DNA of 64,000 nt from Dialister histaminiformans (GTDB lineage: Bacteria > Bacillota > Negativicutes > Veillonellales > Dialisteraceae), in contig NZ_FMXA01000010.1 of assembly GCF_900103425.1 (NCBI RefSeq), positions 1 to 64,000 of the forward strand, given 5' to 3'. The position numbers were made by a program, and so were the translations under genes. The notes under the pieces were generated by a model. It was not told the origin of the DNA and made no database searches. It worked only from the letters and a program-made list of their open reading frames with translations. Shown here piece by piece: positions 1 through 28,172 of this stretch. The number at the start of each line of letters is the position of its first letter. Within the stretch, counting starts at the first letter, position 1.

Positions 1-219
1 TTTCTTCCTATCTCCATGCGGAAATTGGAAGGTATTCGGTATTAGCAGTCGTTTCCGTCTGTTGTCCCCATCCTGAAGGCAGGTTGTTTACGTGTTACTC
101 ACCCGTTTGCCACTAGAATCCAAAAAAGAGCAAGCTCTTTCTTTTCTTCCCGTTCGACTTGCATGTGTTAAGCACGCCGCCAGCGTTCGTCCTGAGCCAG
201 GATCAAACTCTCCATGATA
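1..219 (-). rRNA. rrs: 16S ribosomal RNA, 5' end (partial)
   Basis: The complement of this stretch is the start of a bacterial 16S rRNA. The universal 27F primer site lies at 192-211 in reverse complement, followed by the conserved helices leading to the GTGAGTAACACG region. The variable V1 arm (about 125-160) contains an AAGAGCTTGCTCTT hairpin. The gene continues beyond the left edge, so only about 219 nt of the 5' end is present. The exact mature 5' end is inferred from the primer site and may be off by a few bases. Confidence 0.97.
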
Positions 220-26421: not shown

Positions 26422-27753
26422 TTATGCATTAACACTTGCTGCATCACCGGAAACATGACGGTCATCATTTTCCAGCACATCCTTCAGATCATGATTGGTC
26501 ATAGCGCATACAGCGGAGTCAGACCATACATTTTCTGCGGTTTCAATCATATCAATGATGGTGTAGATGGGAAGGATTACGCCCATGAGTCCCAGCGGAG
26601 CGCCGATGGAAGACATGAGAGACAGTGTCAGGAAATAGCATCCCATCGGAACACCGGCATTACCAATAGCGGAAATTACGGCAATGACTACCCATACCAG
26701 CATAGTGCCAATGGACAGATGGAAACCTGCGTTCTGCATAAGGAACAGGGATGTGGTAAGAATGAAGGCAGCGCATCCGTTCATATTAATAGTCGTGCAG
26801 ATTGGCAGTACGAAACGGGATACAGAATGGTTGACCTTCATATTTTCTTCCGCAGAAGCCAGAGTTACCGGAAGTGTACCAGCGGAACTCTTAGTGAACA
26901 GGGCAACGGCCAGAGCCGGAGACATCTGTCTGAACACCTTAATCGGGTTGAGGCCTCTTGCCAGAAGGAAGAGCGGAATAGTAATGAAAATCTGAATAAA
27001 GTTACCGCCAAGTACAACGGCTACATACTTACCAAGAGCACCGATGATGACACCAGCCTGAATCTGAGAAGAAAGCTGAGCCGCATAAGCCATAATGCCT
27101 ACTGGAAGTGCCCAGAGCAATGCACGGATGAGTGCAAACAGCACTTCCTGCAGTCCATAGATCCCCTTAAGCAGGACTTCCCGGTTTTCTGTCTTCTTCA
27201 TAAAGGCCAGAGCCAGACCTGTGGCAGCGGAAATAATCAGTACGGAAAGTACATTGCCGCTGAGGAATGGAGCCAGAATATTATTTGGAATGACAGAAAG
27301 GAAATGGTCGTAATAAGTCATCTGTTCCAGATCCTGCGGAACAGCGCTGGCACCGGCGCCGATAACGCTGGCCGGCAGATTACCCGGGGCAATCCAGATA
27401 TACAGACCCATAGCGATTAATGCGGCAGCAAATGTGGTGAGAAGGGTATAGGTTACGGCATGGCCGAAAATCTTACCTGTATTCTTCTGCGCTCCCAGGG
27501 CCGCCAGTGTGGTAATGACCGCCAGAGAAATGGTCGGAACGGCGATGAACTGGAACAGACGGGTATATACCTGAGCGATAAAGTTAAAAAGTTCATTAAG
27601 CGCGCTGTTGCCCATCCAGCCAAGTCCGGCACCAATGGCCAGGGCCAGAATCCAGATGACGAGCTGACGCTTGTTATGTCCCGCCTGGCCGGCCTTTAAT
27701 GCGGCATCTGCCTTTTCTCTGACAGTGCTCTGCTGATTGTTATTTACATCCAT
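26422..27753 (-). CDS. Dicarboxylate/amino acid:cation symporter (DAACS family)
   Basis: This 443-residue inner-membrane protein belongs to the SDF/DAACS family (glutamate, aspartate, dicarboxylate, serine/threonine or cystine carriers). The first reentrant hairpin has SSAGTLPVTL, helix 7 has the cation-site NMNGCAAF, and the second hairpin has AIGNAGVPMG; these differ from the NMDGT and GIPG versions of classical GltP/DctA. The N terminus (about 1-28) is a hydrophilic extension. It sits behind a T-box-like leader, which argues that the substrate is an amino acid. The exact amino acid cannot be read with confidence. Confidence 0.88.
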   Translation of the reverse strand: MDVNNNQQSTVREKADAALKAGQAGHNKRQLVIWILALAIGAGLGWMGNSALNELFNFIAQVYTRLFQFIAVPTISLAVITTLAALGAQKNTGKIFGHAVTYTLLTTFAAALIAMGLYIWIAPGNLPASVIGAGASAVPQDLEQMTYYDHFLSVIPNNILAPFLSGNVLSVLIISAATGLALAFMKKTENREVLLKGIYGLQEVLFALIRALLWALPVGIMAYAAQLSSQIQAGVIIGALGKYVAVVLGGNFIQIFITIPLFLLARGLNPIKVFRQMSPALAVALFTKSSAGTLPVTLASAEENMKVNHSVSRFVLPICTTINMNGCAAFILTTSLFLMQNAGFHLSIGTMLVWVVIAVISAIGNAGVPMGCYFLTLSLMSSIGAPLGLMGVILPIYTIIDMIETAENVWSDSAVCAMTNHDLKDVLENDDRHVSGDAASVNA

Positions 27754-27876: not shown

Positions 27877-28137
27877 CAAAACAAAAGGCTTCCGTCCCTA
27901 AGGGACGAAAGCCTGGCTTCGTGATTCTCACCCAAATTTACAGATATGTCACCATATCTGCCTCTACCGGTACGTGTTCATACCGTAAACGCTTTATCGG
28001 GCGTACCCGGAACAGCCTACTCACATTTCAGCTTTCAAGCTCCAGAATGCACTTCAGTCCCATATCCGTACCCGCTCTCACTATCCGGGCTCGCTTTACC
28101 GTATTAGAAGACTTACTCTTTCTTTCATTGCTTTATG
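27877..28137 (-). promoter_or_regulatory. T-box-like leader RNA controlling the DAACS symporter
   Basis: The minus-strand transcript starts with an AGAGTAAG segment, a distal hairpin (28071-28089) with GTGAGAG in the loop, an AGTAGGC segment, a CGGG-CGTA-CCCG hairpin (27998-28009) and a perfect stem-III hairpin (27941-27960). These match T-box Stem I-III architecture. An ACGAAGCC/GGCTTTCGT antiterminator then competes with a terminator (27886-27914) followed by TTTTGTTTTG. The expected GGGTGGNACC bulge reads GGGTGAGAATC here. T-box leaders read uncharged tRNA. The candidate specifier near GAAAGCTGAA could be AGC (Ser) or GCT (Ala), but this is not secure. Confidence 0.72.
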
Positions 28138-28143
28138 TGTCAT

Positions 28144-28172
28144 ACTATAACGCACATAATGAGGTTTGTCAA
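28144..28172 (-). promoter_or_regulatory. Promoter of the T-box leader / symporter gene
   Basis: Minus strand: TTGACA (28167-28172), 17-bp spacer, TATAGT (28144-28149). It overlaps the region just past the stop of the preceding reductase gene, so the symporter has its own promoter. Confidence 0.85.

Follow-up and report, generated by a model that had tools for sequence, protein, structure and literature searches.

What is the RNA that precedes the gene for a DAACS symporter in this stretch of DNA (the window, 64,000 nucleotides in all)? It resembles a T-box leader, and the question arises from one short element close to its 3' end, the bulge that receives the acceptor end of the tRNA. According to a review, this bulge spans 7 nt in all known T-boxes, and UGGN always occupies its 5' edge (PMC7583486). 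The bulge of the DAACS leader, which lies between helices A1 (GGG:CCC) and A2 (ACGA:UCGU), reads UGAGAAUC.

Architecture of the leader and its specifier

A scan of the window with the Rfam covariance models (cmscan) matched RF00230 at 28137-27898 of the minus strand with 94.8 bits (E = 1.6e-19), over the full length of the model (positions 1-219) and narrowly above the gathering score of 93. A search of the 1.7-Mb source genome found 18 T-boxes, this leader among them. The minus strand from 28172 to 27886 holds, in order, a promoter, a 240-nt leader and a 13-bp terminator, after which the symporter gene follows (Table 1). The promoter and the T-rich-tailed terminator are both found ahead of the gene, where shuffles of the region would lead one to expect 0.8 sites like the former and 0.2 like the latter. 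For the 261-nt leader the folding z is -3.7, and none of 200 shuffles was equally stable. Antiterminator and terminator are mutually exclusive, as the 3' strands of A1 and A2 both lie inside the 5' arm of the terminator. The sequence-only reading had proposed a T-box-type leader with a TTGACA-17-TATAGT promoter and a competing terminator ahead of a DAACS gene, and all of these are present, with the covariance-model match above threshold and a PF00375 (SDF) gene downstream. At its edge the window also contains the 5' end of a 16S rRNA gene (1-218, minus strand).

Table 1. Positions of the leader elements and the controlled gene in the window
Feature	Positions	Strand	Basis
Sigma-70-type promoter TTGACA-17-TATAGT	28144..28172	-	11/12 consensus positions
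T-box-type leader, stem I to antiterminator	27898..28137	-	RF00230, 94.8 bits vs gathering 93
Specifier triplet UGC (Cys) in GAAG-UGC-A-UUCU	28049..28051	-	Sequence and covariance-model alignment; frame rule
Stem III hairpin CAGAUAU-GGUGAC-AUAUCUG	27941..27960	-	Sequence and covariance-model alignment
Antiterminator helix A1, 5' strand GGG; partner CCC 27904-27902	27931..27933	-	Leader parse; outer-pair covariation
Acceptor-end bulge UGAGAAUC, 8 nt; extra A at 27928	27923..27930	-	Covariance-model alignment and parse
Antiterminator helix A2 (ACGA ... UCGU) and loop	27905..27922	-	Leader parse
Intrinsic terminator, 13 pairs, loop UUA, U-rich tail	27886..27914	-	Fold and shuffle test
DAACS/SDF symporter, 443 aa, controlled gene	26422..27753	-	PF00375, 300 bits

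The specifier was assigned by the rule that it is the triplet before the purine adjoining the helix. On its 3' side the specifier loop has the sequence GAAG-UGC-A-UUCU, in which UUCU closes the helix, and the rule gives UGC, a cysteine codon. Applied to the cysS, thrS, serS and valS leaders of the same genome, it returns UGC, ACC, UCC and GUC, the right codons in each case. All eight orthologous DAACS leaders described below have UGC, and the source genome encodes a tRNA-Cys with the matching GCA anticodon. The specifier does, as had been suggested, name an amino acid, and the partners suggested from sequence alone, tRNA-Ser and tRNA-Ala, give way to tRNA-Cys. A T-box at L217 (G010:C59:4005-4239) has a 6-nt bulge, UGGAAC, and carries GAAGUGCC at its specifier; at two other loci T-box sequences GGGTGGTACCGCG occur in pairs about 65 bases apart (L001 1682 and 1746; L040 1597 and 1664), perhaps marking partly tandem T-boxes.

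The tail of tRNA-Cys is UCCA in 13 of 13 sequences, drawn from 11 of the 12 genomes of the family and counted without partial matches of 61 bases or fewer. The A of the bulge that would face the tRNA discriminator fits U73 of tRNA-Cys; Val and Ala, the amino acids of the other specifier frames, would call for U at this position (A73). We considered two changes on the tRNA side. An altered 3' end, CUCA, which would match UGAG exactly, is ruled out by the 13 UCCA tails, which include that of a divergent second copy. A second tRNA-Cys as dedicated partner is unsupported, since G004 and G008 have UGAGAAUC yet only one tRNA-Cys match each (E <= 0.001). The divergent second tRNA-Cys (GCA) lies behind the normal copy in both genomes of the genus (L110 1692-1766, G000:C16:13835-13909; L266, G001:C1:736568-736642); C replaces the usual U33 before its anticodon, its T-stem looks weaker and its tail is still UCCA, and it may not be used by the ribosome.

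The interrupted bulge in orthologous leaders

The letters of the non-canonical bulge had been read correctly from the sequence. In the covariance-model alignment it differs by a single inserted base, A at 27928 in GGGUG-a-GAAUCACG, and the 7-nt UGGN bulge is absent; one base must be flipped out for it to be complementary to UCCA. The best parse is UG(A)GA plus AUC, a binding site for UCCA, the tRNA-Cys tail, lengthened by one base. In the cysS leader of the source genome the motif is an ordinary UGGA.

Orthologues of the transporter occur in 31 of 61 genomes of the order (the query and 30 others, at 66-78% identity), and the next homologues fall below 30%. We examined the upstream regions at 30 of these 31 loci. 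A T-box motif precedes eight of the 30, all in the family of the source organism; it was not found ahead of the other 22, and an Rfam scan of 12 of those 22 gave no T-box. Of the 12 family genomes, 11 encode the orthologue, eight with the T-box and three (G003, G005 and G006) without. The bulge is UGAGAAUC in four of the eight leaders, from two genera (G000, G001, G004 and G008), UGUGAAUC in one (G009), UGGUAAUC in two (G007 and G010) and the canonical UGGAAUC in one (G011). Each of the eight can be parsed as UGGA, interrupted by one base or none, followed by a constant AUC, the 8-nt forms being UG(A)GA, UG(U)GA and UGG(U)A, each then AUC; UGGUAAUC can also be read as an ordinary UGGN within a longer bulge. 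The source genome, G000, has UGAGAAUC also in a second Cys leader, which lies on contig C13 and precedes an open frame of 42 codons. Similar open frames of 36-42 codons (MGxLxxKKxNxxxW...CLLFxGISxPAFHxF) immediately follow Cys T-boxes of different genera (L034 1344-1472, minus strand; L123 1697-1807, plus strand), and in G010 a raiA RNA (RF03072, 188 bits) and a further T-box follow the DAACS gene (L158 1136-1338 and 901-1095, both minus strand).

A local mutation or misreading, which a normal UGGN in orthologous leaders had been expected to indicate, does not account for this distribution. One orthologue in eight is indeed canonical, but five lack an uninterrupted UGG and seven have an 8-nt bulge, which speaks mainly against a local mutation; a sequencing slip is likewise ruled out by the same bulge in G001, G004, G008 and the second G000 leader. 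The interrupted bulge looks, from this comparison of sequences, like a real variant common to relatives. It is not essential, because the G011 leader is canonical and G003, G005 and G006 have no T-box at this gene.

The suggestion that the leader might be another RNA class built on a T-box scaffold is not supported, given that stem I, stem III, the antiterminator and the terminator are all kept and the G011 orthologue's leader is a plain Cys T-box, which gives the DAACS leaders common descent with canonical T-boxes. By strict definition we call the leader a T-box variant, because one family feature, the 7-nt UGGN bulge, is missing. It appears to descend from a T-box and, as far as its sequence can tell, most likely works like one.

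To place the bulge among other leaders of the same specificity, we gathered 25 Cys leaders and parsed 24, the cysS leader being unparsed and outside the counts; of 23 pattern places, L128 and L129, which belong to other families and show none of the features of a T-box, were dropped as chance matches. Across the 24, the outer pair of helix A1 covaries (G-C in 16, A-U in 8), and the fourth pair of A2 is A-U in 17, G-C in 6 and U-U in 1. An 8-nt bulge is found in seven of the eight DAACS leaders and in one of the 16 others, of which one more has 6 nt and the rest 7 nt. Fisher's exact test gives p = 1.8e-4 for this association, treating as independent leaders of which eight are orthologues sharing ancestry; the extra base in those eight may go back to one old event.

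Among 106 T-boxes sampled from the 12 family genomes, out of 269 matches and mostly the better-scoring ones, 103 have a plain UGGN, and the lineage is thus generally intolerant of loose bulges. The exceptions are the two G000 leaders and the unparsed L017, counted as without UGGN; L213, L053 and L064, which the script missed or misparsed, show UGG by eye and were taken as canonical. L017 (G000:C37:99071-99266) is a T-box match near a contig end, possibly decayed, with no recognisable UGGN at its 3' end.

Pattern searches of wider scope found no further loci of this kind among those read or scanned. In 380 genomes of the class, GGTGAGAATCACGN{2,28}CGTCC occurs only in G000 (2) and G001 (1), a pattern that misses G004 and G008, where the antiterminator has TGTCC; GGGTGAGAATCACGN{0,25}GTCCCTT across genome contigs gave two records, those two already known leaders. 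The ten places with GGTGAGAANCACG in 61 genomes of the order are five known leaders and five others that are not T-box-like. A looser split pattern gave 16 matches in the 380 class genomes, four of them known leaders; of the other 12, nine loci were scanned with Rfam and held no T-box, and the remaining three, L242-L244, are near-copies of the L241 match. An interrupted version of the usual UGGNACC was matched 17 times in 398 genomes of the phylum, about as often as in a reversed control (18), and Rfam scans at 12 of these loci returned one weak T-box match, at a different place.

Proposed tail contact and competing readings

We read the leader as a working, transcription-attenuating Cys T-box in which a bulged base in the duplex with the tRNA tail would weaken the contact, and on the sequence evidence we give this reading a probability of about one half. 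The UGC specifier of the nascent leader would read the GCA anticodon of tRNA-Cys. The UCCA tail of an uncharged tRNA-Cys would pair with the bulge and stabilize the antiterminator, so that polymerase reaches the transporter gene; when no uncharged tRNA-Cys is at hand, the 13-bp terminator would form. In the T-boxes reviewed, the tRNA tail pairs directly beside helix A1 and stacks there, and the stack continues into the acceptor stem (PMC7583486). The tail-binding site here would be one base longer than usual, UG(A)GA-AUC as against UGGA-AUC. Its U and G would pair with A76 and C75 adjoining A1, as in other T-boxes, and with the extra base flipped out the following G and A could then pair with C74 and U73. 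With the interruption lying behind A76 and C75, the stack on A1 and the check for charging would be kept, and the helix that otherwise runs unbroken into the acceptor stem would be interrupted. The contact is expected to be weaker because the interrupted forms are each computed at +1.1 kcal/mol, as against -2.7 for UGGA:UCCA (ViennaRNA, nearest-neighbour), a difference of 3.8 kcal/mol. By inference, a weaker contact would therefore mean a higher threshold, with more uncharged tRNA-Cys needed for switching on.

On the same model, the interrupted duplex may be too weak to switch at all. The main rival, which we regard as unlikely, is that acceptor-end sensing has been lost and that stem I still reads the anticodon and elbow of tRNA-Cys, leaving a fixed leaky attenuator or an anticodon-only sensor. 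The predicted instability of the duplex on its own, the broken UGG in five DAACS leaders and the G000:C13 leader, and the orthologues without any T-box are all consistent with such a loss. A lost site should drift, yet the 14-mer GGGUGAGAAUCACG, and the 8-nt bulge with it, is identical across the UGAGAAUC leaders (cross-genus pairs and the two G000 loci), whose bodies are only 48-61% identical; because of this invariance, the 14-mer is, to judge from the alignments, not drifting. The other forms in the family, UGUGAAUC and UGGUAAUC, retain complementarity to UCCA, and the specifier, the promoter and the terminator have all been preserved, which again argues against a loss of tail sensing.

A further reading, which we hold to be rather unlikely, is that the 8-nt bulge is neutral, tolerated in the lineage of DAACS leaders and working like one of 7 nt. 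Bulge length does vary in the family, as the 7-nt orthologue and the 6-nt Cys-type UGGAAC of L217 show, and the shared ancestry of the DAACS leaders means that few events may explain them all. Neutrality sits poorly with the concentration of the extra base in DAACS leaders among parsed Cys leaders and with the fixation of UGAGAAUC across two genera.

The extra base might alternatively act in the OFF state, strengthening a hairpin GUGA-GAA-UCAC over the bulge that masks the site for the tRNA tail and leaves the tRNA duplex unaltered. GUGAGAAUCAC folds with four pairs at -0.8 kcal/mol, and in all five UGAGAAUC leaders the hairpin belongs to the minimum-energy fold of the 3' part, beside the terminator. 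The effect is tiny, however: with the UGUGAAUC and UGGUAAUC forms the hairpin has just three pairs (-0.2 and -0.1 kcal/mol), and ordinary UGGAAAC leaders form a more stable hairpin (-1.2 kcal/mol). We therefore consider masking very improbable.

The transporter and the place of the leader among known T-boxes

The controlled gene product belongs to the SDF/DAACS family and is similar to solved glutamate/aspartate transporter homologues. It reaches none of the NCBIfam equivalog cut-offs. Against E. coli proteins of the same family it scores 89.7 bits with TcyP, 87.0 with GltP, 86.3 with DctA and 50.4 with SstT, yet it is only about 24-25% identical to each, so similarity does not settle the substrate. 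The Arg of the DMxRT motif binds acidic side chains. This position is Arg in GltP and TcyP and Glu in the symporter, as in SstT. Together with the Cys specifier, the Glu suggests, at the level of sequence, a small neutral amino acid such as cysteine as substrate. A T-box-controlled DAACS transporter is entered in a 2008 survey of T-box regulated genes with its amino acid given as '?' (PMC2494555), where the specifier found here is Cys in eight of eight leaders.

The closest known systems are the Cys class I (transcriptional) T-boxes of RF00230. The DAACS leader is like them in its UGC specifier loop, stem I, distal loop motifs, stem III, A1/A2 antiterminator, competing terminator and place ahead of an amino-acid gene, and differs in its 8-nt bulge with UG-A-GA. 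TBDB counts 48 entries that have a specifier and no canonical UGGN (PMC7778990); like the DAACS leader, these are T-boxes without a recognisable UGGN. In the titles and opening lines of the papers retrieved on T-box bulge variants, Cys T-boxes, TcyP and non-proteinogenic tRNA-Cys, we found no interrupted, conserved UGGN site.

Taken together, these data allow the tentative view that the leaders form a T-box subtype, in which a selected one-base interruption would break the stack between tRNA and T-box and raise the starvation threshold of a cysteine transporter above that of cysS in the same cell. The contact between UGGN and NCCA is the step at which T-boxes distinguish charged from uncharged tRNA, and a conserved natural interruption lends itself directly to testing to what extent the switch needs this contact and the continuous stack behind it. 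For this subfamily of DAACS transporters, the Cys specifier points to cysteine.
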